Assembly: GCA_031266495.1 (NCBI GenBank)
Contig: JAISAX010000225.1
Location: 1 to 26,270 of the forward strand
Source: Opitutaceae bacterium
Lineage (GTDB): Bacteria; Verrucomicrobiota; Verrucomicrobiae; Opitutales; Opitutaceae
Direction of reading: 5' to 3'
DNA: 26,270 nucleotides
The translations under genes were made by a program, and so were the position numbers. Below the pieces are notes generated by a model that had not been told where the DNA came from, did not search any database, and was given only the letters and a program-made list of their open reading frames with translations. Of the stretch, positions 3,093 to 26,270 are shown in pieces (the stretch's first letter is position 1; each line of letters opens with the position of its first letter).

Positions 3093-4460
3093 ATGTCCAC
3101 CACTCCCACCACTCCCACCACTCCCGCCACTCCCGCCACTCCCGCGACTCCCGCCCCCCTCCTCCATCCCGTCCCGGATCGCTGGAGCCTGCACAGTTAC
3201 TACACGCTTTGTCCCTACGCGCCCGACGGCTCCGACCGCCTGCTCGTTTCCGGGGCCGACCTCGCCACCCGCACCGGCGAAATCATCATCCTCGGCCCCG
3301 CCAACGCCGATGGCTGCCGCGCCATCGAAACCCGCTTTCCCGCCGGTCCGGTCAACACTGCGTACTGGCATACCGGGTACTGGCAGACGTGGTCGCCCGA
3401 TGCCCGCGCCATTTATTTCCAAGGCGGCTCGCTGACTTCCCCGCGTATCCGCCGCCACGACCTCGCCACCGGCGTCACCACCGAAATCGGGGGCGACATG
3501 GAAGGCGCTCCCCCCGACGGCGAACCCATCCTCTCCGGCCTTCTCGGCATGCTCTACGCCGCCGGCTACGGCGACGGTCGTTACAAACCGGATACCGCTC
3601 CCGTTCCCTTCCAGGCCCGCGACCGCCACGGGCTCTTCGAATACCGTTTCCCCGACTCTCCTGGCCCCGGCCTCTGGACTCCGGGCTCCAAACCGGGCGA
3701 AGCCCGCCTTCGCCTGAGCATCAACGACGTCCTGCAAAAACTTCCCGCCGCCACCCGCGACCGCATCCGCGCCACCGACCGCGAACTCGCCGCCCGCCTT
3801 GACGCCCGGTTCGCCTCCCGCCCTGCCTCCCTCCTCGCCTCCCGCCCTGGCGCGGACGAGGCCGCCACGCTCATGCTCTACTGCGTCCGCTGGACGCGCG
3901 ACGCCCGCCGTTTTCTCTTCTTTTTCGGCAACCACTGCGTCGTGAAGGAGCGCGGCGAACCCAAGCTCACGTACATTCTCACGGCAGACCGTTCGCTCGA
4001 CGAAATCCACATCGCGCTCGATTTCAGCTACGAACGCCGCGGCGTCCACTGGAGCTGGCAGCCTGACGGCGATCACCTCATCGGTTACGGTCCCGATCCG
4101 GCGGATCCCGGTCGCCAGTGCCTCGCCGAAGTCCGTTACGACGGCACCGGCTACCGCAAGCTTAGCGACCACGCCAGCGGCGGCCACCCGAGTGTCAGCC
4201 CGCTCGATCCCGACCTCATTGTCACCGACGAAGGCACGGCGACCGGCGGAGCGGTTCTCTTCATCTCCCGACGCACCGGCCAGACGATCCGCCGCATCGA
4301 GCTGCCCAAATTCATCGGCGACCGCGAGCCGCCCGGTCGCAACCCGCTGCGCATCTGCCACCATCCCGTTTTCAATCACCGGGGTGACAAAGTGCTCATC
4401 AACACCCTGCCGGACGCGAATGCCGTTCTGGCCGAAATCACGCCGCCCGTCCTCAACTGA
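3093..4460 (+). CDS. Beta-propeller protein, TolB/oligogalacturonate-lyase-like
   Basis: A 455-residue protein with blade-like repeats: WQTWSPDARAIYFQGG, VRWTRDARRFLFFFGNH, VHWSWQPDGDHLIGYG, HPSVSPLDPDLIVTD and HPVFNHRGDKVLINT. These 'W/H-x-x-SPDG-x-x-[LIV]' strands are typical of six- or seven-bladed propellers of the TolB and oligogalacturonate lyase (PF14583) type. The spaced His residues (HPS, HHPVFNH) recall the metal-binding histidines of that lyase family, but I cannot confirm catalysis. There is no signal peptide. The start is uncertain: ATG 3093 is followed by six tandem 9-bp units coding TTP/ATP triplets, so the fold starts only near residue 25. An in-frame GTG lies at 3072. The esterase ATG begins two bases after this stop, so the two are almost certainly co-transcribed. 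A role in breakdown of acetylated plant polysaccharide is inferred only. Confidence 0.75.
   Translation: MSTTPTTPTTPATPATPATPAPLLHPVPDRWSLHSYYTLCPYAPDGSDRLLVSGADLATRTGEIIILGPANADGCRAIETRFPAGPVNTAYWHTGYWQTWSPDARAIYFQGGSLTSPRIRRHDLATGVTTEIGGDMEGAPPDGEPILSGLLGMLYAAGYGDGRYKPDTAPVPFQARDRHGLFEYRFPDSPGPGLWTPGSKPGEARLRLSINDVLQKLPAATRDRIRATDRELAARLDARFASRPASLLASRPGADEAATLMLYCVRWTRDARRFLFFFGNHCVVKERGEPKLTYILTADRSLDEIHIALDFSYERRGVHWSWQPDGDHLIGYGPDPADPGRQCLAEVRYDGTGYRKLSDHASGGHPSVSPLDPDLIVTDEGTATGGAVLFISRRTGQTIRRIELPKFIGDREPPGRNPLRICHHPVFNHRGDKVLINTLPDANAVLAEITPPVLN
3099..3152 (+). repeat. Six tandem 9-bp units in the start of the propeller gene
   Basis: Six consecutive 9-base units (three ACCACTCCC, two GCCACTCCC, one GCGACTCCC) run from 3099 to 3152. 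They encode TTP-TTP-TTP-ATP-ATP-ATP just after the start codon. The unit is three codons long, so copy-number change would alter linker length without shifting the frame. Confidence 0.85.
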
Positions 4461-10990: not shown

Positions 10991-13903
10991 ATGTCCACAC
11001 CTTCCGCTTCCTCTCCCCCCGACTCCGGTTCCGCCCGGAACTGCCCCCAGTGCGGCCGCCCCGTTCCGCCCGGCGCCGCGCTCGGCCTTTGCCCCGCCTG
11101 CCTTCTGGCCGCCGGCCTGCCGACACAACCCCACAACCCCGCTCCGCCTCCGCCCGCTCCGTCCGATATTGCTGCCGAGTTTCCGCAACTCGACATCCTC
11201 GCCCTGCTCGGACGCGGCGGCATGGGCGCGGTTTACAAGGCCCGCCAGCGCGACCTCGACCGTATCGTGGCGCTGAAAATCCTCCGCCCCGGCCTTGATG
11301 CCGATCCGACATTCGCCGACCGCTTCCGTCACGAAGCCCGCGCGCTCGCCCAGCTCAACCACCCCGGTATCGTCACCCTTTACGAAACCGGCCGCACACC
11401 TGGCGGCCTGTATTTTATCCTCATGGAGTTCGTGGACGGACTCACGCTCCGCCAGCTTCTCGACACCCGCGCCGGTCCCCTGCCCGCCCGCGAGGCGCTG
11501 GAAATCGTCCCGCAAATCTGCGACGCCCTCCAGTACGCGCATGACCGCGGTGTCGTCCACCGCGACATCAAGCCGGAAAACATCCTCCTCGACCGGCAGG
11601 GTCACGTAAAAGTCGCCGATTTCGGCCTCGCTCGCATCGCCGTTCCCCGTGGCGCGGGCATCCCGCCCGCTTCTCCGCAACCGGAAAGCACCTCGCCCTC
11701 ACCGGACGCCGGTCTGCCGACCCGTCCCGGCAAGATCATGGGCACGCCCGCCTACATGGCTCCCGAACAAACTGCGGCCTCGGGCGAGGTCGATCACCGC
11801 GCCGACATCTACGCGCTCGGCGTCGTTCTCTACCAGATGCTCACCGGCGAACTCCCGCCATCCGCCCGACCGCTCGCGCCGCCCTCGAAAAAAGTCCACA
11901 TCGACGTCCGCCTTGACGAAATCGTCCTTCGCGCCCTCGAACAAAACCCCGCCCGTCGCTACGAACAGGCCAGCGAACTGAAAACGCAGGTGGAAACCGT
12001 CACCCGCTCCTCCCGGACCTCCCGCCTCTCCTGCCCCGCCCCTCCCCTCCTCCCCCCCCCCGGCGGCTCCGGCGACTCCGGCAGGACATCAGACCAGCAC
12101 GGTCTGCAAGCCAATTCACCCCGCGACTCCCGTCCCCGCCTCCGTCCCCATCCCCTCCGCCTGCCATCCTGTCTGCTCGCCATTTTCGCCGCTCTTTTTT
12201 TGGGCCTGCTCGTTGTATCCGTCTATCTGTTACCCGATCCGGTGGCGACCCATTTCGGCGGCAACGGTGCGGCCAACGACTGGATCAGTCGTACCCCATA
12301 CCTCCTCTTCACCGAACTCATCGGCATCGGAATCCCCTTTTTCATTTGCTGCCTCTTTTTTGCCCTCGGACACATGCCTGCCCGCGCCTTCAACCTGCCT
12401 CACCGTGACTACTGGTTCGCCCCCGAACGCAGACGCGCGACCAACCTGTTCCTTCTCCGGCACGGCCTCTGGCTCGCCCTGTTGGCCCTCTGTTTTATCA
12501 CATGTATCCATATTCTCATCATTGCGGCCAACCGGCTCCCGTCTCCCCCCAGCCTCTCCGGTCGCTGGCTGGCTGCGCTTGTCATCACCGACTTCTCGCT
12601 CGCCAGCCTCTGGCTGTTTTCATTCCTGCGACCCTTTTTGCGGAAACCACCCCGTCCGCTTCCTGACGCCATCCCTCATCGACCATTCCCGCATCTGCTG
12701 CTGGTCGCGCTGGTTTTCGGCGGTTTTTCCGGCTCCATTGCCACCGCCTCACGGATACTCGGCGCCCCCCGGACCACGAACCCCGCGCCCATATCCGCGC
12801 CGCCCGTCGCCACCGATCCCGCGCGCCTGCGCTTTCTTCGTGAAGCCATTCCGGTGACAGTCGCCGGTATTTCCGCCGAACTTCGCCAGGCTGTCGCCGG
12901 ACTCGTTCCCGACTCCGCCATCCAGGTATCTGACGGAAAACTACAAATAACTTCCGGCACTGTGCGGCTCACCCTCGAACGCATCACCCGGCCTCCGGAG
13001 AAAGCTTTCTCCACTCCCGAAGTCACGCGTGGCGAACACTCGTTCATGTTCGTCAACGCCGGTTTCGATGCCGCCGCCGGGGAAGGTGCCCGCGTCGAAC
13101 TCGTCTGCACCGCCGCCCCGCCCGACTCCGATCCGTTGCTGAAGGCGCTCATGCTGACATCGATCGCCTGGCTCCACACCGGCCAGGAAACGCTTGTCGA
13201 TCACAGAGGAGAACCCTTGCGCGTGAACACCGAAATTTTCCTTGATGGCAGCGCGCTCGATTCCGTGGAAATCCGGCCCTCGCCCTCCCCTGAACATGGC
13301 AAACACGAGATCCTGTTCCGGTTCACCACGGAGGGAGTTTTCCGGCTCGACCAGTTATTCCAGACGGCCAGAAAACGCCGCATCGCCATCGTCCTCGATC
13401 AACGGGTGCTGAGCTCTCCGACAGTGATGGCCGACAGCGCCCCCTCAACCGTGTCGTTCATCGCCGATCTCTTCGATGAAGAAGCCGCCCTGCTCACCGG
13501 GTTGCCCCGGGCAGCACATTCCTCCGGACGCGCAAGCCCTCCGGAGCGTAATTCTATTTCCTCCGCTGTCGAGAGTGCCCGCGTCTGGTTGCAAAGGATC
13601 GACGCCGGTCCCGATCATTACGCGCAGAGCTGGCGCGAAGCCTCCGCCGGTTTTCGCGCCACCGTGGCGGAAGCGGAGTGGGTGACGACGCTGAAAGCCG
13701 GACGCCCTTCACTCGGCAGCGTCGCCTCGCGTCGGCTCGTTTCCACGCAAGAGACCCACACGTTACCCGGCGCGCCCGATGGCCATTACGTTGTCATGCG
13801 CTTTGCCACCGATTTCACCCGTCAGAAGTCCGTCATCGAAACCGTCACCTTCAGTCGGGAATCCGACGGCGCGTGGCGGGCTTCCGGATACTATCTCCAC
13901 TAA
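10991..13903 (+). CDS. Multi-domain membrane Ser/Thr protein kinase
   Basis: A 970-residue protein with an unusual domain order. Residues 18-37 form a zinc ribbon (CPQC and CPAC pairs: C18, C21, C34, C37). The Hanks-type kinase follows: glycine loop [10 protein letters not shown] (73-82), Lys96, HRDIKPEN (Asp192), DFG (210-212), then [10 protein letters not shown] and [16 protein letters not shown] proline-rich linker (~340-385) contains a C10 tract in the DNA. Several membrane helices follow (~390-555); the first ends in [19 protein letters not shown], a DUF1648-like motif. A region resembling the SecD/SecDF P1 head follows (~750-840: [45 protein letters not shown]). The last ~110 residues are a DUF4019-like domain. 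All catalytic residues are present, so it should be active. The domain calls after the kinase are by motif recognition only. Confidence 0.92.
12052..12061 (+). repeat. C10 homopolymer inside the kinase linker
   Basis: Ten consecutive C lie in the codons for the linker between kinase domain and membrane segment (about residue 355, in PLLPPPGG). As given, the 970-residue frame is intact. Loss or gain of one base would stop translation soon after the kinase domain. Confidence 0.85.
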
Positions 13904-13948: not shown

Positions 13949-14398
13949 ATGACCAGACAACTGATCACTGTCCTGTTCCTCCTCACGCTGCTCCCTGTCG
14001 AAGGGACATTTGGCCAGGAACCCAAATCCACACCCTCGCATAAACACGACGACGCCAGCGATCCCGTCATCGAAAGAACGCTCGTCTGGCTGGGCCACAT
14101 CGACAACGGCCGCTACGCGCAAAGCTGGCGCGACGCCTCCGCCGGTTTCAAAAATGCCGTGACCGAGGCCGACTGGGAAAAGGCCCTCAAATCTGTCCGC
14201 GCCCCGCTAGGCACGCTCGTCAAACGCCAGTTGCAGCACCGCCAGCAAACCTCCACGCTGCCCGGTGCTCCCAAGGGTGACTACGTCGTCATGCAATTTG
14301 CCACCGGATTCTCCCGCAAAAAATCCGCCATCGAAACCGTCACCTTCGCACGCGAGACCGACGGCGCGTGGCGGGCCTCCGGCTATTTCATCAAGTGA
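13949..14398 (+). CDS. Secreted DUF4019-like protein, paralogue of the kinase C-terminus
   Basis: A 149-residue protein with a signal peptide (MTRQLITVLFLLTLLPVEGTFGQ) followed by one DUF4019-like domain. That domain aligns along its whole length with residues ~860-970 of the upstream kinase; shared blocks include YAQSWR-ASAGF, TLPGAP, YVVM-FAT, IETVTF and DGAWRASGY. By my eye count about 60% of aligned positions are identical. The gene starts 46 bases after the kinase stop and ends five bases before the sigma factor start, so it is probably in the same transcript. The function of DUF4019 is not known to me. Its presence both on the kinase and as a free exported protein suggests a sensor domain or a competing soluble partner, which is inference. 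Confidence 0.82.
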   Translation: MTRQLITVLFLLTLLPVEGTFGQEPKSTPSHKHDDASDPVIERTLVWLGHIDNGRYAQSWRDASAGFKNAVTEADWEKALKSVRAPLGTLVKRQLQHRQQTSTLPGAPKGDYVVMQFATGFSRKKSAIETVTFARETDGAWRASGYFIK

Positions 14399-17826: not shown

Positions 17827-19518
17827 TCAGGGCCAGCGTTGCGTCGAGCAACCCCAAAACACCAGCGCCGCACCGGCTGCCGCATGGATGCCGAGCACGC
17901 CGGCGGCGACGGGAGGCGGAGCCAGCCAGCCCTTGTCGAGCATGACGACGGCATCGTAGAAACGGGTCTCGTTCATCGCGGTGAGGTAGCCGGACCAGCC
18001 CCAGTACGTGGCGATGAAGGGGCGCACGGCCCAGACGAGGGCGGAGGGCAGGGCGAGGACGACGCCGGAGAGCGGTAGCTGGAAGCCGACGAGGTAGATC
18101 GAGAGCAGCGAGGCCTTGTCCGGCGAGGTGAGCACGGCGGAGAGGCCCAGGCAGACGACGCTCATTGATGCGCCGACCGCGGAGAGCACGCCGAGTTGCG
18201 GCAGCCAGTGGCCGGGAAAATCGCAGAGCGTTTTGACGAAAACGGTCATCCACGCGCCCTGGGCCGCGCCGATGAAGAGGGCGAAAAGCAGTTTTGAAAC
18301 GGCATAGGCGGCGGGGCGCAGGCCGGCCATGCGTTCTTTTTCGTAAAGGGCGCGTTCGCCGGCGATCTCGCGGGCGCCGTTGTTGCTGCCCATGAGGCTG
18401 AGCAGGATGACCTGGAACACGATCAGCCCGGAAACGAGCATGGCGGTGTCGGCCGCCTGCTGGCGAAACTGCGCCCGCTCCTGAAGCGCGTCGAGGAGGC
18501 TGCCAGTCTGTTCGAGCGAGAGGCTTTTCATTTGCGGCAGGCCGCCGAGCGCGAAAATGACGACGAGGCAGGGAAACCCGAACGTGATGGCAAGTGTGAG
18601 CGCGAGGTAGCCGCGGTCGCGCATGAAGAGTCGCCAGCGGCGGCGCAGGAGCGTGGCCGTCTGGCGGAGAGGGCCGGGCGTTGCCGCAGTTGATTTGGCA
18701 ATACATGGAAGATTGGCGGGCACGGGTTCGTTTTCTGCATTCTTCATTCTGCATTCTTCATTCCCCGCGAAGCGGGATGCCGGGGCGCGCCCGAGCCAGT
18801 AATCGAGCGGGTGTTCGGCGAGGCGGTCGTAAAGGAGGAGGGCGTCATCGATCGCGAAATGGGCGAGCATGGCGGCGAGCGTGCCCTGGAAGACGACGGC
18901 GCCTTCATAGACGACGGTCACGGTGTCGAACCGCGTGAGCTTGGCCAGATTGTGGATGACACAGATGACGGTGCGACCCTGGCCGGCGACGAGGGAGCGG
19001 AGCAGGGCGAGGATCTGGTCCTCCGAGCGGGGGTCGAGGCCGCTGGTGACTTCGTCGCAGAGGAGGCAGGCGGGGTCGGTGGTGAGTTCGAGCGCGAGGC
19101 CGAGGCGGCGGAGTTGTCCGCCGCTGAGTTTTTCGACGAGGGTGTCGGCGCGTTCTTCGAGGCCGACGAGCTGGAGGAGATCGGTGCGACGGGAGGGGGC
19201 AGCGCGGGTCTGGTAAAGCCGGAGAGCGGCGTCGATGGTTTCGCCGACGGTGAGCTTGCCGTGGGCGATGCTGAACTGGGGGGCGAAAGCCACGGCGCGG
19301 AGGAGTTCGCGGGGGCCGGCCACGGTCTGGCCGCGCAGGCTGACCTCGCCCCGGGCGGGGAGGATGCCGAGCATGCCCTTGAGGAGCGTGGTCTTGCCGC
19401 AGCCGGAGGGCCCGATGAGGGCATGGAGTTGTCCGCCGGTCCAGCGGGCGGACGCATCGCGAACGAGCAGGGGAGCGCCGGGTTTCGGAAAAACGTCGAG
19501 GTGGTGACAGGCAAGCAC
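17827..19518 (-). CDS. ABCG-like ABC transporter (ATPase fused to ABC-2 permease)
   Basis: A 563-residue half-transporter. The nucleotide-binding domain has Walker A GPSGCGKTT (36-44), Q-loop Gln81, signature LSGGQ (131-135), Walker B CLLCDE (151-156) and H-loop His189 (VIHN). The second half (~285-560) holds about six membrane helices of the ABC-2/ABCG type (YLALTLAITFGFPCLVVIFAL, AMLVSGLIVFQVILLSLMGS, KLLFALFIGAAQGAWMTVFV, LSIYLVGFQLPLSGVVLALPSALVWAV). It probably exports a lipid-like or envelope substrate, working as a dimer. A word repeat is inserted in frame in the linker (18733-18764). The start is uncertain. GTG 19518 fits the domain, but a strong Shine-Dalgarno and ATG (19629-19613) lie upstream, out of frame by one base across a G12 tract. 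Confidence 0.9.
   Translation of the reverse strand: MLACHHLDVFPKPGAPLLVRDASARWTGGQLHALIGPSGCGKTTLLKGMLGILPARGEVSLRGQTVAGPRELLRAVAFAPQFSIAHGKLTVGETIDAALRLYQTRAAPSRRTDLLQLVGLEERADTLVEKLSGGQLRRLGLALELTTDPACLLCDEVTSGLDPRSEDQILALLRSLVAGQGRTVICVIHNLAKLTRFDTVTVVYEGAVVFQGTLAAMLAHFAIDDALLLYDRLAEHPLDYWLGRAPASRFAGNEECRMKNAENEPVPANLPCIAKSTAATPGPLRQTATLLRRRWRLFMRDRGYLALTLAITFGFPCLVVIFALGGLPQMKSLSLEQTGSLLDALQERAQFRQQAADTAMLVSGLIVFQVILLSLMGSNNGAREIAGERALYEKERMAGLRPAAYAVSKLLFALFIGAAQGAWMTVFVKTLCDFPGHWLPQLGVLSAVGASMSVVCLGLSAVLTSPDKASLLSIYLVGFQLPLSGVVLALPSALVWAVRPFIATYWGWSGYLTAMNETRFYDAVVMLDKGWLAPPPVAAGVLGIHAAAGAALVFWGCSTQRWP
18733..18764. repeat. Tandem 14-bp word repeat inside the ABC transporter linker
   Basis: TCTGCATTCTTCAT occurs twice back to back (18734-18747, 18748-18761), followed at once by the small hairpin CCCGC-GAA-GCGGG. 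It reads in frame in the transporter as part of GNEECRMKNAENEPV, between the ATPase and membrane domains, so it looks like a tolerated insertion. Confidence 0.75.
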
Positions 19519-19577: not shown

Positions 19578-19629
19578 CCCCCCCCCCCCGTCCCTCCGCC
19601 CGTTATCGACGGCATTGCTATTTCCCTCC
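19578..19629 (-). promoter_or_regulatory. Strong RBS and ATG followed by a G12 tract upstream of the ABC transporter
   Basis: On the minus strand GGAGGG (19629-19624) lies nine bases before ATG (19615-19613), the clearest Shine-Dalgarno arrangement I saw in the window. Twelve G follow at 19589-19578. With twelve G the ATG is one base out of frame with the transporter. With eleven it would be in frame and add 32 residues to the N-terminus. In the transporter frame itself a TAA lies just before the tract. Confidence 0.55.
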
Positions 19630-19945: not shown

Positions 19946-19981
19946 GACGCGCGACAGCGCGCCCCCTGCGATTTGCCCCTC

Positions 19982-20337
19982 CGTTTGCAAACGCAAGCCT
20001 GCCCCGCGTCCGGCTTGCCCCGCCGTTTGCAAACGGAACCCCGCCCCGCACCCGGTCGAGCATTCCGCCGGTGGACGCAACTCCGCCCGGCACCCGGTTG
20101 AACATTCCTCCCATGGATGCAACCCTGCCCGGCATCCGGTTTGCCCTTCCGTTTGTGAACGCAAGCTTGCCCGGCGTCCCGTTATTCATTCCGCCCATGG
20201 GCGGAACCCTGTTTCGGGTCTCGATCCATGCATCGCCTGCAAACGAAACCCTGTTTTGGGCTCCGATCCATGCATCGTTTCGAAACGAAACCCTGTTTCC
20301 GGGTCGATTTGATGAACCGTTTCGAAACGAAACCCTG
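19982..20337. repeat. Array of nine 42-bp imperfect repeats, each with a palindromic core
   Basis: Core 12-mers start at 19982, 20024, 20066, 20108, 20150, 20192, 20234, 20276 and 20318, exactly 42 bases apart. Units 1 and 2 carry CGTTTGCAAACG, unit 6 CGCCCATGGGCG and units 8 and 9 CGTTTCGAAACG, all perfect palindromes. Unit 5 (CGTTTGTGAACG) is near-perfect; units 3, 4 and 7 are partly symmetric. The core is followed by an AAC-CTG-type word (AAACCCTG or GAACCCTG in later units). The spacers drift from GC-rich at the left end to AT-richer at the right. Units 6 and 7 share the same spacer end (GATCCATGCAT), as expected from local duplication. Because 42 is fourteen codons, several frames stay open. 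It is not CRISPR-like, since the spacers are themselves repeats. Confidence 0.9.
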
Positions 20338-20410
20338 AATTTCGAGAAAAACATCCTGCCGTACGCAAACGCCCCCCGTCTCCCCTTCCAGCCCGCACTA
20401 TCGTAACATC

Positions 20411-21334
20411 ATGAAAATACACGCCATAAACCTCGGACGCCTGCGCAACGAGGAAATGTATCAATTCCAGACGGACCTGCACAGTCTGCTCAAGAACAGC
20501 GAGCCCGTAAAAACCGGACTCGGAGACGCGCTCTACGGCGAGTTCAACCGCCTGCGGGCCGCCGCCGACGCCGCCCTGCAACCCGCCCGCAAGAGCGCCC
20601 TGACGCCGATTCTCGCCGCGGAAGACGCCCAACGCGACCAGCTCTACGGGGCGCTGCGCGACCTCGCCACCCTCTACGCCCAGCGCCACTACGAAGCGAA
20701 CAAGCGCCCCGTGGCCGCGCAACTCCTCGTCACGCTCGACAAGTACAAGCGCGACATTGCCACCGGCACCTACAACGAGGAGACCGCCGCCATCACCAAC
20801 CTCGTCGAGGACCTGCAATCGGCCACCGTAGCCGCCCCCCAGGTGAACACCCTCGGGCTCAACGCCTGGGTGGAAGCCCTTGCCAACATCAACAACCAGT
20901 TCGTGACAGACCTTGCCGCCCGTTACGCCGAGACGGCCGCCCAACCCGCCGCCGGAGCGATGCGCGACCTGCGCCCTGCCATCGAACAAAACCTGCGCGC
21001 CCTCTTCGAAAAAGTGAACGCCCTGTTATTGACCGCGCCCGATGCCGCCGCCGCCACGGTGATCGATACCTTTATCGCGGCGCTCAACGCCCGGATCGAT
21101 TACTACGCCCGTGCCGCCGCCCGCCACGGCAAACGCAAGACGCCCGGCGATCAACCCTCCGGCGCACCCGATGCCGGCGACGACGCCGACGCCTCCGACG
21201 TCCCCGCCCCAGGTAATGGCACCGGCAACACGGGCGGCTCCGGAGTCGGGGCCGGCAACGGCGAAGCCGAAATCACCATTCCCGTGCCGCTCGAAGTGGA
21301 TGTCACCGCCACCGCCCGCGCCAAAAAAGCGTAA
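20411..21334 (+). CDS. DUF6261-like protein
   Basis: A 307-residue, mostly helical protein. The N-terminal motif MKIHAINLGRLRNEEMYQFQTDLHSLL and later segments (ILAAEDAQRDQLYGALRDL, NEETAAITNLVEDLQS, DTFIAALNARIDYYARA) match my memory of the DUF6261 family, known mainly from Bacteroidetes and with no established function. The last ~60 residues are a low-complexity Gly/Asp/Asn tail ending in VPLEVDVTATARAKKA. There is no signal peptide and no membrane helix, so it is probably cytoplasmic. No Shine-Dalgarno is visible before the ATG. The 42-bp repeat array ends about 70 bases upstream, and an open frame through the array stops at 20404-20406. A DNA- or RNA-binding role toward the array is inference only. 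Confidence 0.8.
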   Translation: MKIHAINLGRLRNEEMYQFQTDLHSLLKNSEPVKTGLGDALYGEFNRLRAAADAALQPARKSALTPILAAEDAQRDQLYGALRDLATLYAQRHYEANKRPVAAQLLVTLDKYKRDIATGTYNEETAAITNLVEDLQSATVAAPQVNTLGLNAWVEALANINNQFVTDLAARYAETAAQPAAGAMRDLRPAIEQNLRALFEKVNALLLTAPDAAAATVIDTFIAALNARIDYYARAAARHGKRKTPGDQPSGAPDAGDDADASDVPAPGNGTGNTGGSGVGAGNGEAEITIPVPLEVDVTATARAKKA

Positions 21335-21352
21335 GCATGCAGCCGGTCCGGG

Positions 21353-21391
21353 ATCTGAAATCTGAAATTCGAAACCTGAAATCTGCAATTT
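21353..21391. repeat. Low-complexity 'atctgaaatctg' word repeat between genes
   Basis: ATCTGAAATCTGAAATTCG, then AAACCTGAAATCTGCAATTTT, is a run of near-repeated words of 8-10 bases in the 68-base gap between the DUF6261-like gene and the giant repeat protein. No promoter or terminator is evident in it. Confidence 0.65.
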
Positions 21392-21402
21392 TCCGTTCGT
21401 CT

Positions 21403-24400
21403 ATGAAACTACAAATGCCAAGAACACCACCCACCCTCACCGCCGCCGCCCTGCGCCCGCGCCCTGCGCTTGCGGCCCTCGCCATCGCTGCGGCTGTCGC
21501 GGTCCTCTCCCTCGCGTCGCCCCTCCGCGCCGCCGCCACCTGGAGCACAGGTGGCCCCGACCAGCCCATCACATCCAACCGCACCGTCACCGTTTCCTCC
21601 GGGGCCGAGACGGAGTCCACCCCGCTCACCGGCAGCACCGGGGGCGTCACCCTCACCAAGCTGGGCACCGGCACGCTGACGCTTTCCGGCACGCTCGACG
21701 GTTATGTCGGCAACCTCGTGCTGGGCAGCGCGACGGGATCGACTACCGCAGGCGGCTGGCTGATCCTTGCCGGGGACAACCGTGCCTACGCAGGCAATGT
21801 GACGGTGGGCTATGGCTCATTGGCGATGGCATCCGACACCAATTTCGGCACCGGTACGTACACCCTCTATGGTAACAGCGCTTCCACCGGTGCGTTCTTG
21901 CGCCTCACCGGGACGACTGGTACGGCCTATAGCAAAGGCATCGCGTTGCGTGGCAGCTACAATGCCATCACGACGGATAACGCTGTGACCTTGAGCGGAG
22001 TGCTCGGCAACGGCGCTGCTGCGGGAGGATTTCACAAGCAGGGAGCGGGCACGCTCACCCTCACCGGAGCCAACACCTATACGGGGGAGACCGATATCAC
22101 GGCGGGCACGCTGGCCCTGGCTGGTGGCGGGTCCATTGCGACATCATCCCTTGTCGCCTTCAATGACGCTAACGCGACATTCGATATATCGGGCATCAGT
22201 ACGGCTACGGCCACCATCAAGGCTCTCGTCGATTCATCCAGCACTAAGGGATCGGTGGTCCTGGGGAGCAAGGAACTGCTGCTCAACGGCACCAACAACA
22301 CCGAGTATTATGGTACCATTGCCGGCACAGCCGGGAGCACGCTGACCCGGGCAGGCACCGGCATCACCAGACTGTATGGCGACAACAGCGCGTTTGAAGG
22401 CAAGACCAAGGTTACCGGGGGAACCCTGAGCATCGGGGCCAACACCAATGTCGGTGTCATCATTGATGGCGGCACACTGGAACTCCGCGATACAGGCACC
22501 TATGCCAAGGGCTGGACCATCGGCAACAGCACCGACAGCAAGATCAGCGTTGGCAGCGGTCTGACGGCAACCCTTACCAATCCCCTTGTTGGTACAAGCG
22601 GCACCCTCACCAAGCAGGGTGCCGGCACGCTGGTCCTTGCCGGGGTCAATACCGGCTACGCAGGCAATGTGACGGTAGGCGGGGGTACACTGGCGATGGC
22701 ATCCGATGACAATTTCGGCACCGGCACGTACACCCTCTATTACGGGACATTATCGCTCACCGGGGAGAGCGGCACAGACTATACCCGAGGAAACATCGCA
22801 CTGCGTGGCAACGGCGGCATCTTGACGGCAAACGATGTGACCTATAGCGGAGTGCTCGGCAACAGCGCTGATGGCGCAGGAGGATTCACCAAGCAGGGAG
22901 CGGGCACGCTCACCCTCACCGGAGCCAACACCTATACGGGAACCACCTCCATCAATGCGGGCACGCTGGCCCTGGCTGGTGGCGGGTCCATCGCGACATC
23001 AAGCGAGATCAGCTTCGGCGGCAATAACACGACATTCGATATATCGGGCATCAGTGCGGATACGGCCACCATCAAACGTCTCAACAGCTCATCCAGTAAT
23101 ACGGGAGTGGTGGTGAACCTGGGGAACAAGGAACTGGTGCACAACGGCACCAGCCCCGACTCTTATTACGGCACTATTACCGGAAACGCCACCAGCAAGC
23201 TGACCAAGGCAGGCAGCGGCTATATTTACCTGTATGGCGACAACAGCGCGTTTGCGGGCACGACCCGGATTACCGGGGGATACCTGAACATCGGGTCCGA
23301 CAGCAATGCGCCAGGCGACACCACCGCTGACGGCACCGCCAGGCGCATCATCGACGGCGGCATCCTGGAACTCCGAGAGACAGGCACCTATGCCAAGGGC
23401 TGGACGATCGGCAGCAGCACCGCCAGCAAGATCCGCATTGCCAACGGCCTGACGGCGACCCTTACCAGTCCCCTTGTCGGCGGCACGGGCGGCACCCTCG
23501 CCAAGACGAATGCCGGTACGCTGATCCTTACCGGCACGCTTGCCGGTTACCAAGGCGACCTCGTGGTGGGCGACGCGACAGGATCGCTCACCGTAGGCGG
23601 CAAGCTGGTCCTTGCCGGGGACAACCGTAACTACGCAGGCAATGTGACGGTGGGCACGGGCACACTGGCGGTGGCATCCGCCGACAGTTTTGGCACCGGC
23701 ACGTACACCCTCTATGGTTACAGCGCCAGCAGCAGCTACCAGTCGATTTTGTCGCTCACCGGAGAGAACGGCACAATCTATACCCGAGGAAACATCGCGC
23801 TGCGTGGCACCTATAACCGCAACACCATCGAGACGGCGAACAACGTGACCTTGAACGGAGTGCTCGGCGACGGCGCTGCTGCGGGAGGATTCAACAAGAC
23901 GGGGGCGGGCACCCTCACCCTCACCGGAGCCAATACCTATACGGAGGGCACTGCCATCAATGCGGGCAAGCTGGTTGTCAGCGGCGCGGGCGCGCATCTG
24001 GGCCCGGGCGCGCTCACCTTCAGCACGGAGGGGAACACGCTGACGATCACGGACAGAGCAGCGCAAAGATTCACGGGCGATGTAGGCAGCACGACACTCG
24101 CCAACAATGCGCAAGTCACCGTGAGCAACGGTGCCACGCTGGAATATGGCGATGCAGTCAGCGACAATTTCTATGCGCCGCTGCAACTCGGCAGCGGCAC
24201 CACGCTGGCAGGCCTGGGCACGATCCGGGACGCCAACGCCAGTACCGGCAAAACCGCCGTCACGCTGGCTGCGGGCAGCACGCTAGCCCCCGGAGCCATC
24301 GGCAGCACGACGCCCGGCACCCTGACCTTCAACAAAGCGGCCCCCCTGACCTTCAGCGGTCTCACGTATGCCATCGACGCCAACGCCACCACGTCCGACA

Positions 24401-26270
24401 CGATTGCCCTGACCGGTACAGGCGGAGCGACCTTCGACGGCACCGACAGCACGATCAACTTCGTTCGTAACGACGGCAGCACCTGGAAGCAGGAAAACAC
24501 CTGGGACATCCTCACCGCCACCGGAGACGGTGGCCTGACCGCCAGCAACCTCGACAAAGCTACGGTCAACATACGCGTAGCGGGAATGGACGGCCCTTAT
24601 ATAGGCCACTGGAGCGCCGGGCTGACGAACACGGCAACTGCGATCCAGGTAAAGACCGACTACCGCAACCTGCAAGTCACCTGGGACGGCGCGGACAGTG
24701 ACATCGCCTCCACCACCGCGTGGAAGAAAGGCGGCGTGGCCCTCACCGACGAAAGTTTCATCGCCAATGATTCCCTCATTTTCGGTTCTGCTGGCAGCAA
24801 GAGCGTCACCGTCGGTGCCGCCGCCACCGTCAGCGGCCTGACCGTGGAGGCGACGGGCTACACCTTCAGCGGAGAAAAGCTCACCGGCACCGCGACGGCC
24901 AAAGATGCGGACTACACCCCCACCGGAGCCCTGCTCGTGACGGCCAACGGCGGAGCGACGTTTGACAACGCGCTCGACTTCGTCTCGGCGGAAATCGCAG
25001 GCGCAGCCACAATCAACAATACCCTGACCGTCGCCGAAGGCGTGACGGTGCGCGCCGGCGGCACGCTATCCGGCACGGGCACGATCACCGGCAACACTCA
25101 CACGCTGGAGGCGGGCAGCACGCTGGCCCCCGGAGCCATCGGCGACACGACGGCAGGCAAGACTCTGATCTTCCAGAAGACGATCCCCCTGACCCTCAGC
25201 GGGCTCACGTATGCCATCGACGCCGACGCCAGCACGTCCGACAAGATCGCCCTGACCGGCGCGGGCAACGCGACCTTCGACGGCACCGGCAGCACGATCA
25301 ACTTCGCCCGCAACGACGGCGGGACATGGAAGCAGGAAAAAACCTGGGACATCCTCACTGCCACGGGAGGCACCCTGACCGTACAAAACCTTGCCGCTGC
25401 CACGCTCAACATGAGCGCGGCGGACCGGGATGCCGCCAGCTACACGGGCCACTGGAGCGCCGGGCTGACGAACACGGCGACGGCGATCCAGGTGAAGACC
25501 GGCTATCGCAACCTGCAAGTCACCTGGAACGGCGCGGACAGCACCCTTGCCTCCGCCACCGCGTGGCAGAAAGGCAACGCAGCCCTCAGCAACGAAAGTT
25601 TCATCACCAATGACTTCCTTGTTTTCGGCGCTGTCGGCAACAAGAGCGTCAACGTCGGCACAGCGGCCACCGTCAGCGGCCTGACCGTGGAGGCGACGGG
25701 CTACACCTTCGGCGGAGAAAAGCTCACCGGCACGACGACGGCCAAAGATGCGGACTACACCGTCACCGGAGCCCTGCTTGTGACGGCCAACGGCGGAGCG
25801 ACGTTCGACAACGCGCTCGAATTCGTTTCCGCCGAAATCGCAGGCGCAGCCGCGTTCAACAGCACGCTGACCCTGACCGCCGCCGATGGCATGACTGTGC
25901 TCACCGGCGGCACGCTGGGCGGCACGGGCACGATCACCGGCGACGTATCTATTGCGGACGGGGGCATGCTGGCCCCCGGCAACTCGCCCGGCGCGCTGAC
26001 GGTCAACGGCAACGTGACGCTGGGAACCGGAGCCACTGCGCTCTTCGAGATCGGCGGCGCGGGCGACGGCGAGTACGACCGGTTGATCATCAGCGCCGCC
26101 AGCGGCTCCGCCGCGCTGACCCTGGGCGGCACGCTCGAACTGGTAGCGTATAACGGATACACGGGCGCGGAGGGCGACACGTTCCGGCTCTTCGATCTGG
26201 TGAGCGGAGCGACCGTCACCGGCGAGTTCGAGGGCGGCATCAACGGTTTCGCCCTGGGCGACGGTCTGGC
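21403..26270 (+). CDS. Giant secreted protein with autotransporter-associated beta-strand repeats (3' partial)
   Basis: The frame from ATG 21403 stays open to the window end, giving at least 1622 codons with no stop. After a signal peptide (ALAALAIAAAVAVLSLASPLRAAA) come repeats of the PATR type (PF12951): TKLGTGTLTLSG, KQGAGTLTLTGANTYTGETDI, KQGAGTLVLAG, KQGAGTLTLTGANTYTGTTSI and KTGAGTLTLTGANTYTEGTAI. Further on is an LAPGNSPGALTVNGNVTLGTG segment typical of the end of such passengers. They form a long right-handed beta-helix displayed at the cell surface. The C-terminal anchor (autotransporter barrel or PEP-CTERM) lies beyond the window, so the export route is unknown. The gene has grown by internal duplication. 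Composition is Thr/Gly/Ala/Asn-rich and nearly free of Cys. Confidence 0.9.
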   Translation, partial: MKLQMPRTPPTLTAAALRPRPALAALAIAAAVAVLSLASPLRAAATWSTGGPDQPITSNRTVTVSSGAETESTPLTGSTGGVTLTKLGTGTLTLSGTLDGYVGNLVLGSATGSTTAGGWLILAGDNRAYAGNVTVGYGSLAMASDTNFGTGTYTLYGNSASTGAFLRLTGTTGTAYSKGIALRGSYNAITTDNAVTLSGVLGNGAAAGGFHKQGAGTLTLTGANTYTGETDITAGTLALAGGGSIATSSLVAFNDANATFDISGISTATATIKALVDSSSTKGSVVLGSKELLLNGTNNTEYYGTIAGTAGSTLTRAGTGITRLYGDNSAFEGKTKVTGGTLSIGANTNVGVIIDGGTLELRDTGTYAKGWTIGNSTDSKISVGSGLTATLTNPLVGTSGTLTKQGAGTLVLAGVNTGYAGNVTVGGGTLAMASDDNFGTGTYTLYYGTLSLTGESGTDYTRGNIALRGNGGILTANDVTYSGVLGNSADGAGGFTKQGAGTLTLTGANTYTGTTSINAGTLALAGGGSIATSSEISFGGNNTTFDISGISADTATIKRLNSSSSNTGVVVNLGNKELVHNGTSPDSYYGTITGNATSKLTKAGSGYIYLYGDNSAFAGTTRITGGYLNIGSDSNAPGDTTADGTARRIIDGGILELRETGTYAKGWTIGSSTASKIRIANGLTATLTSPLVGGTGGTLAKTNAGTLILTGTLAGYQGDLVVGDATGSLTVGGKLVLAGDNRNYAGNVTVGTGTLAVASADSFGTGTYTLYGYSASSSYQSILSLTGENGTIYTRGNIALRGTYNRNTIETANNVTLNGVLGDGAAAGGFNKTGAGTLTLTGANTYTEGTAINAGKLVVSGAGAHLGPGALTFSTEGNTLTITDRAAQRFTGDVGSTTLANNAQVTVSNGATLEYGDAVSDNFYAPLQLGSGTTLAGLGTIRDANASTGKTAVTLAAGSTLAPGAIGSTTPGTLTFNKAAPLTFSGLTYAIDANATTSDTIALTGTGGATFDGTDSTINFVRNDGSTWKQENTWDILTATGDGGLTASNLDKATVNIRVAGMDGPYIGHWSAGLTNTATAIQVKTDYRNLQVTWDGADSDIASTTAWKKGGVALTDESFIANDSLIFGSAGSKSVTVGAAATVSGLTVEATGYTFSGEKLTGTATAKDADYTPTGALLVTANGGATFDNALDFVSAEIAGAATINNTLTVAEGVTVRAGGTLSGTGTITGNTHTLEAGSTLAPGAIGDTTAGKTLIFQKTIPLTLSGLTYAIDADASTSDKIALTGAGNATFDGTGSTINFARNDGGTWKQEKTWDILTATGGTLTVQNLAAATLNMSAADRDAASYTGHWSAGLTNTATAIQVKTGYRNLQVTWNGADSTLASATAWQKGNAALSNESFITNDFLVFGAVGNKSVNVGTAATVSGLTVEATGYTFGGEKLTGTTTAKDADYTVTGALLVTANGGATFDNALEFVSAEIAGAAAFNSTLTLTAADGMTVLTGGTLGGTGTITGDVSIADGGMLAPGNSPGALTVNGNVTLGTGATALFEIGGAGDGEYDRLIISAASGSAALTLGGTLELVAYNGYTGAEGDTFRLFDLVSGATVTGEFEGGINGFALGDGL
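21787..23940 (+). repeat. Three long diverged copies inside the giant gene
   Basis: The 20-mer TACGCAGGCAATGTGACGGT occurs at 21787, 22657 and 23632, each followed by closely similar sequence (a GCATCCGA-type segment, then TTTCGGCACCGG or TTTTGGCACCGG, then ACGTACACCCTCTAT). This marks copies of about 870 and 975 bp. The third copy is cut short by a different block. Confidence 0.8.
24271..25850 (+). repeat. Two tandem ~840-bp copies inside the giant gene
   Basis: Matching anchors lie 840-843 bp apart: GCGGGCAGCACGCT at 24271 and 25111, GGCCACTGGAGCGCCGGGCT at 24604 and 25447, and GTGGAGGCGACGGGCTACAC at 24844 and 25687. Long nearly identical stretches lie between them, so the duplication is fairly recent. 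The period is a multiple of three and the frame is kept. Confidence 0.85.

Follow-up and report, generated by a model that had tools for sequence, protein, structure and literature searches.

A DUF6261 gene behind a tandem array of palindromic 42-bp units: a possible protein-DNA module with conserved geometry

The array and the gene it precedes

The window, i.e., the whole stretch of DNA that was analysed (26,270 nucleotides of an Opitutaceae contig), contained a DUF6261 gene (PF19775) that encoded 307 aa at 20411..21334 on the plus strand (Pfam E 9.4e-29) and had been missed in the preliminary description of this DNA. The gene was preceded by a 73-bp spacer (20338..20410, plus strand, delimited by the sequence and the self-alignment) and by a tandem array of nine 42-bp units at 19959..20337, located by self-alignment and TRF. 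For the array, plus denotes the strand of the gene that follows, its palindromes being strand-symmetric. The exact 42-bp period and the nine units described previously were borne out. Namely, the units started at 19982, 20024, 20066, 20108, 20150, 20192, 20234, 20276 and 20318, in exact 42-bp steps, and the self-alignment gave a lag of 42 with a score of 125, spanning -452 to -73 relative to the DUF6261 ATG, while the top score in ten shuffles of the same 700 bp was 11. The TRF rows over the array were 19972-20183, 20033-20141 and 20205-20337.

Each unit began with a 12-bp core, to which no strand was assigned, and five of the nine cores were perfect palindromes. As stated in the preliminary description, three different perfect palindromes were present: CGTTTGCAAACG in units 1 and 2 (19982..19993 and 20024..20035), CGCCCATGGGCG in unit 6 (20192..20203; 18 bp with its flanks, TTCCGCCCATGGGCGGAA) and CGTTTCGAAACG in units 8 and 9 (20276..20287 and 20318..20329). 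The other four cores, omitted from that description, were imperfect: CGCCGGTGGACG in unit 3 (20066..20077), CTCCCATGGATG in unit 4 (20108..20119), CGTTTGTGAACG in unit 5 (20150..20161) and CGCCTGCAAACG in unit 7 (20234..20245). Thus, the claim that symmetry was kept as the cores changed held for the five perfect units and not for the four imperfect ones, and it was wrong that the central pair was always self-complementary, since it read G,T in two of the four imperfect units. Moreover, one palindrome half was altered without the other in unit 7, a kind of change that had been named beforehand as refuting the earlier reading.

The dyad of the array nevertheless exceeded that of all 200 column-permuted versions (p = 0.005, the floor), and 45 of the 54 core cells were Watson-Crick pairs (48 of 54 when G.U was included). 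The covariation check proposed earlier gave a divided answer on the nine units. The covariation score was 0.542, compared with 0.275 for shuffled partners, none of 500 shuffles was as high, and slid versions reached at most 0.36. On the other hand, two of the five covariation measures did not rise above the shuffles: 4 pairs had a change on both sides, a number reached in 92 of 500 shuffles, and the 7 further pair types were reached in 419 of 500. A search of Rfam gave no match at gathering score across the whole window.

The DUF6261 protein

The window protein matched the PF19775 profile at 100.8 bits, against a curated cut-off of 27, and no other Pfam family, nor any DNA-binding domain, was above cut-off. 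Its nearest relatives were 71-87% identical, and the named ones were annotated as Opitutaceae MAG proteins. The AlphaFold2 model was all-helical, with a mean pLDDT of 84.6, and was confident for residues 1-240, followed by a low-confidence tail. Structure comparison against the PDB and against viral models gave nothing at E <= 0.001 for this model, and the family profile had no sequence match to any solved structure in the PDB. The protein was acidic, with a pI of 5.4, which was also the family median (36 proteins). In a Pfam scan of 36 members, all matched DUF6261, and the other 24 families listed were weak matches in 1-5 members each. The family was patchily distributed: sampling of 296 Bacteroidota genomes showed it in 6, among them the centre genome, and its copies reached 21 in one genome.

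Several arrangements of these genes were seen along the way. Two loci (L001 and L020) had a tandem pair of DUF6261 genes, and the pair at L020 was preceded by just one array, of roughly ten 42-bp units. Two others (L175 and L176) were on records listed as Parabacteroides distasonis plasmids; one of these stretches also carried era and der, so the records may be chromosomal pieces. In the window, the DUF6261 gene was directly followed by a long open frame (21337-26268) with five PATR (passenger-associated transport repeat) stretches; by eye, its likelier start was near 21404, with a signal-like N-terminus.

Association of the array with DUF6261 across genomes

An array was called where self-alignment at lag 40-43 reached a score of at least 25 no more than 700 bp from a DUF6261 start codon. 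Upstream of the gene, 77 of the 94 distinct loci had such an array; the downstream control, which was shorter (40 kb vs 63 kb upstream), gave one in 93. Shuffled upstream regions of the first batch scored 9 to 18 at any lag. The other 17 loci were below the threshold, and some of these misses had weaker or more distant arrays (L015, L157, L169 and L170). From the end of the array to the ATG, the distance was 21 to 786 bp in 66 arrays, and at most 312 bp in 63 of them.

The loci were drawn from Bacteroidota genomes, most of which had been found via similarity to the window protein. The DUF6261 listing held 164 matches in 19 genomes; 71 were fetched by region, besides L001-L024, and 8 more came from the 296-genome sample. 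Of 104 entries, 94 upstream regions were kept, after dropping those with identical last 200 bp or with almost no upstream sequence, and a partial match (L025) never entered. Among the 30 loci taken directly from that listing (L026-L055), 23 repeated counted loci, one was too short and six were new. The least selected sample consisted of 8 loci in five genomes drawn evenly across the phylum (the centre genome apart). Three of these 8 reached the array score, 6 beat 200 shuffles scored at those lags (p = 0.005, the floor) and 2 gave no signal. All four loci from named records also beat 200 shuffles (p = 0.005, the floor), with scores of 87, 17, 20 and 15 at lag 40-43, so that one of the four was at or above 25. 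Additionally, five of the six new loci from the DUF6261 listing, which were absent from all other statistics, reached the array score.

In 800 kb of one isolate genome (G010), all five DUF6261 genes had an array, and 7 of the 12 arrays with a lag of 41-42 were not beside DUF6261, one of these orphans being homologous to a DUF6261-linked array. The same 800 kb (L115-L154) held a second, different set of arrays: the period was 21, 22, 23, 41, 42, 44 or 46 bp in 49 of 64 tandem-repeat rows, and several of the repeat families were dispersed beside unrelated genes. At five loci (L058, L059, L060, L065 and L066), a separate repeat with a 21-bp lag (scores 18-31) was located about 500-680 bp upstream, beyond the 41-bp array.

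The flanks of 26 loci showed no other recurrent gene family beyond three two-locus pairs and one four-locus group, the latter made up of antisense ORFs that overlapped the array or the gene. Since no other gene family recurred, we took the module to consist of the array and the gene. The earlier statement that the array was not CRISPR was likewise upheld, because the whole unit was repeated without unique spacers and no neighbour gene family recurred in the flanks.

Geometry was conserved while sequence turned over

Across 66 arrays, the period was 42 bp in 34, 41 bp in 30, 40 bp in one and 43 bp in one; an AG dinucleotide run with a period of 40 (L083) was dropped from the array statistics as an artefact. 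The period was thus not a multiple of 3 in 32 of the 66 arrays (30 of them at 41 bp), which made a conserved protein frame, mentioned earlier as a possible cause of the palindromes, unlikely.

The sequences of the units behaved differently. Array likeness was judged by blastn at 1e-4, and the comparison was limited to loci whose proteins aligned over at least 120 residues in BLASTP. None of 1851 array pairs was alike below 50% protein identity, while 13 of 16 were alike at 80% or above, and we concluded that the arrays travel with their protein. The alike pairs totalled 22, all between proteins at least 57% identical; two pairs scored as unlike by blastn (L056/L063 and L095/L096) had unit pieces in common by eye.

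The dyad symmetry noticed in the window was real there and in the family. An uninterrupted stem of 5-8 bp was present in 42 of 54 independent arrays, compared with 20% in column-permuted arrays. The dyad spacer ranged from 0 to 15 nt and was 0-4 nt in 27 of the 42 stem-bearing arrays. When the arrays were tested singly, the dyad had p <= 0.05 in 43 of 66, leaving 23 without it.

Helical phasing and k-mers were tested in 54 of 78 arrays with no 10-mer in common. The fourth harmonic of the unit was chosen since four turns of B-DNA make 42 bp, and it corresponded to 10.25-10.5 bp. It was the strongest of the first twelve harmonics for A and for T. Relative to dinucleotide shuffles, the 54 consensus units gave z of 4.2 for A, 3.5 for T and 3.8 for purine, and the raw units 5.3, 3.8 and 4.9, respectively; A plus T combined had no fourth harmonic in the consensus units (z -0.7). 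The phase was locked to the dyad, with R of 0.40 for A (p ~2e-4) and 0.36 for T. In a dyad-preserving shuffle, 0 of 1000 versions were as high at k = 4, though this shuffle did not keep dinucleotides and the first harmonic was high too (A z 5.2). Taken apart, the 42-bp arrays gave 2.9, 3.5 and 3.6 for A, T and purine; in the 41-bp arrays (n=26), A held (z 3.4) and T (1.2) and purine (1.3) did not. Among the controls, the near flank gave z of 2.2 for A and 1.6 for T, the far flank was below 1, and the gene gave 3.2 for T and 0.8 for A. Purine phasing was absent from the near flank, the far flank and the gene (z -1.3 to 0.6).

DNA or RNA

The preliminary description had offered either a dimeric protein site or a folded RNA as the object of selection. 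The dyad common to both was confirmed, and the RNA branch found no support from wobble pairs. If RNA helices of the gene strand were kept, G.U should exceed A.C in the stems. The stem mismatches showed no such preference, with 57 G.T and 70 A.C cells; G.T predominated in 21 arrays and A.C in 22. Nor did the gene strand fold better than the opposite strand, which it outdid in 25 arrays and fell short of in 40.

We therefore weighed these results against an array that is transcribed into a tandem-hairpin RNA binding DUF6261, similar to the RNA of type III toxin-antitoxin loci or the stem-loop arrays of TIGR-TasA. In most loci the array precedes the gene, which suits such an RNA, and so do stems of 5-8 bp with spacers of 0-4 nt in 27 of 42 cases. 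Promoter-like sites were present ahead of the array in 15 of 74 cases (5.4 expected), and in 16 of 79 cases the array ended no more than 60 bp before the ATG, with no clear promoter there by eye. Precedents exist for tandem repeats upstream of a gene acting as type III antitoxins (PMC4627078) and for variable yet palindromic TIGR stem-loop arrays (PMC12045711). The orientation of the array was fixed relative to the gene, and some k-mers were strand-biased, such as GGAAC, present in 9 of 54 arrays, with 1 on the reverse strand, the mean top count in shuffles being 8.4; both features could be explained by RNA. Against it stood, besides the wobble and folding results, the period of 41-42 bp across unrelated sequences with A and T phased to the helix, the acidic protein, the occurrence of paired variable spacers in only 2 of 63 arrays, the scarcity of terminator-like sites between the last unit and the ATG (4 of 78, 1.0 expected) and the presence of promoter-like sites also between array and gene (15 of 69, 6.7 expected). 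We considered the RNA doubtful, yet still a live rival. The absence of a wobble bias and of a strand bias in folding, together with the period and the helical phasing, favoured double-stranded DNA, i.e., an element that acts at the DNA level with four helical turns per unit.

The promoter-like sites between array and gene would also fit an array that serves as operator for some other regulator of DUF6261 expression, with no contact between DUF6261 and the array. The upstream position of the array and an acidic protein with no known DNA-binding domain agree with this. However, no second gene family accompanied the loci, and under a host regulator the paralogues of a genome should have a common operator, whereas likeness was limited to the 22 array pairs between proteins of at least 57% identity. 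We judged such a regulator improbable.

How the symmetry might be maintained

It had been argued that random drift would break the symmetry and that selection was therefore likely. As argued, this was not supported, because template switching was left out. Template switching in imperfect palindromes homogenises the arms and inverts the spacer (PMC8604942). Cores that were reverse complements of each other were found at the dyad centre in 10 of 79 arrays, where the rate at other centres (51 of 5369) predicted 0.75; the control centres had no palindromic flanks, so this excess was somewhat overstated. Examples were ACAT/ATGT in L085 and AACACT/AGTGTT in L097. The flipped cores differed by at least two bases in six arrays (L001, L020, L085, L091, L097 and L110); in the other four, the difference was a single central base, explicable by plain substitution. 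These observations suggested that template switching helps to keep the symmetry. Since mutation itself can repair symmetry in this way, selection was not its sole explanation.

In a rival reading, the array would be a self-propagating minisatellite, in which slippage multiplies the units and quasi-palindrome template switching matches the arms, present at these loci as a functionless bystander. The flipped cores, the imperfect cores in 4 of the 9 window units, the orphan arrays and the tandem families of 21, 22, 23, 44 and 46 bp in 800 kb of one genome all agree with it. A neutral process, in turn, leaves unexplained the upstream position beside one gene family (77 of 94 loci, vs 1 of 93 downstream), and why a four-turn period had A and T phased to the dyad; we found it an unlikely account of the family. 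The narrow period, and the placement of the arrays next to a single gene family, still pointed to selection.

Comparison with known systems

Plasmid iterons and ParR-parC partition centromeres are direct repeats at whole helical turns beside the gene of their presumed binder. Whole-turn spacing was common to these and to the DUF6261 arrays (period 41-42 in 64 of 66; fourth-harmonic phasing). In contrast, the site sequence of the DUF6261 arrays was not conserved though the protein was, and the protein had no known DNA-binding domain. REP/BIME elements are likewise palindromic, go with a single protein family (the RAYT transposases) and have orphan copies at other genomic positions. Orphan DUF6261-type arrays existed as well, including the one homologous to a DUF6261-linked array, but the DUF6261 arrays differed from REP/BIME by their strict tandem period, the lack of a transposase domain and a palindrome sequence that was not conserved. 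A CRISPR array was rejected on the grounds given above, namely repetition of the whole unit, no unique spacers and flanks in which no neighbouring gene family recurred.

The closest systems in layout were the type III toxin-antitoxin loci (ToxIN, CptIN and TenpIN), which likewise have a single gene immediately preceded by tandem repeats of comparable unit size, with units of 36 nt and 45 nt in two cases (PMC4627078). Their repeats also differ greatly between loci. The DUF6261 module differed by few terminator-like sites before the gene and by the lack of a wobble signature. This candidate was rejected because no ToxN/CptN/TenpN-type family was among the Pfam matches listed for 36 members and the model was all-helical.

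In looks, the TIGR-TasA stem-loop arrays were the closest. They are described as holding "variable but consistently palindromic sequences" (PMC12045711, Faure et al. 2025) and have, like the DUF6261 arrays, tandem palindromic variable units beside a single gene for a nuclease-less protein, the unit sequence being conserved within a locus and different between loci. Palindromic variable unit parts of the TIGR type were present in the DUF6261 arrays (42 of 54, against the 20% null). As a TIGR-Tas array the candidate failed, with dual variable 8-12-nt spacers in only 2 of 63 arrays of at least four units; the test called for two 8-column windows at no more than 60% majority identity, and the mean majority identity was 0.85. 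The window array, at 0.69, was more variable than most and had one variable window rather than two. No Nop family was among the 25 Pfam families listed for 36 members, nor was a Nop protein among the fold-search matches listed, though a match to Nop may lie outside these listings. The DUF6261 module departed from TIGR-TasA in its acidic protein, its narrow 41-42-bp period and its DNA helical phasing.

A phased DNA scaffold as the proposed function

We propose that the array and DUF6261 form one module, in which the array is a phased DNA scaffold or operator for assembly in cis of DUF6261 as a putative binder; we put the probability of this reading at roughly 0.5. By association, array and gene would be inherited together as a two-part module. 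The array would act as double-stranded DNA, each 41-42-bp unit making four helical turns, so that whole-turn spacing would place the palindromic sites of all units on the same side, with A- and T-rich steps phased to the helix around each dyad, as the statistics suggest. A protein, most simply the cognate DUF6261, may then assemble on it in cis. The unit sequence would turn over fast through duplication within the array and through template switching between arms that re-creates the symmetry, a step for which the flipped cores provide part of the evidence. With spacing and symmetry mainly kept, the letters themselves would matter less for recognition than shape, spacing and dyad.

Several findings counted against the phased-DNA reading. 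The protein was acidic with no DNA-binding domain above cut-off; 17 of 94 loci were under the threshold, and in the evenly drawn sample 3 of 8 passed and 2 of 8 gave no signal; orphans made up 7 of 12 arrays in 800 kb, and 23 of 66 arrays had no dyad at p <= 0.05. Dyad spacers of 0-15 nt would be unusual for a rigid dimer site. Additionally, phasing in the 41-bp arrays was limited to A, some signal was present in flank and gene, A plus T combined gave z -0.7, and the fixed orientation and strand-biased k-mers could be explained by RNA.

More tentatively, DUF6261 and its arrays could be a new protein-DNA module that passes on geometry and not sequence: the four-turn palindromic units would diversify themselves by template switching, and the protein would read spacing, dyad and phased bending to build a nucleoprotein structure in cis. 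We took the module as a new kind since no family with testable defining features fitted it; its mechanism may prove to be a variant of phased-site arrays. If this were true, each paralogue in a genome would have a privately worded and identically shaped scaffold. DUF6261, an uncharacterised family with up to 21 copies per genome, gains a recurrent nucleic-acid partner. The arrays also amount to a natural experiment in which sequence was almost fully exchanged while the period and, mostly, the symmetry were kept, so that the reading of shape can be told apart from the reading of letters. Finally, the 41-42 bp period across unrelated sequences offers a simple search rule for further members.

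Other features of the window

Elsewhere in the window, a tandem 9-bp repeat, CCACTCCCG, was present in 6.2 copies at 3100-3155. A protein-kinase-like protein with a terminal DUF4019 (10991-13903) was followed by a stand-alone DUF4019 protein (13949-14398). A run of 12 C (19578-19589) was located 60 bp from the start of a divergent ABC-transporter-like ORF (17827-19518, minus strand); it was poly-G on the strand of that ORF and is a possible phase-variation tract.
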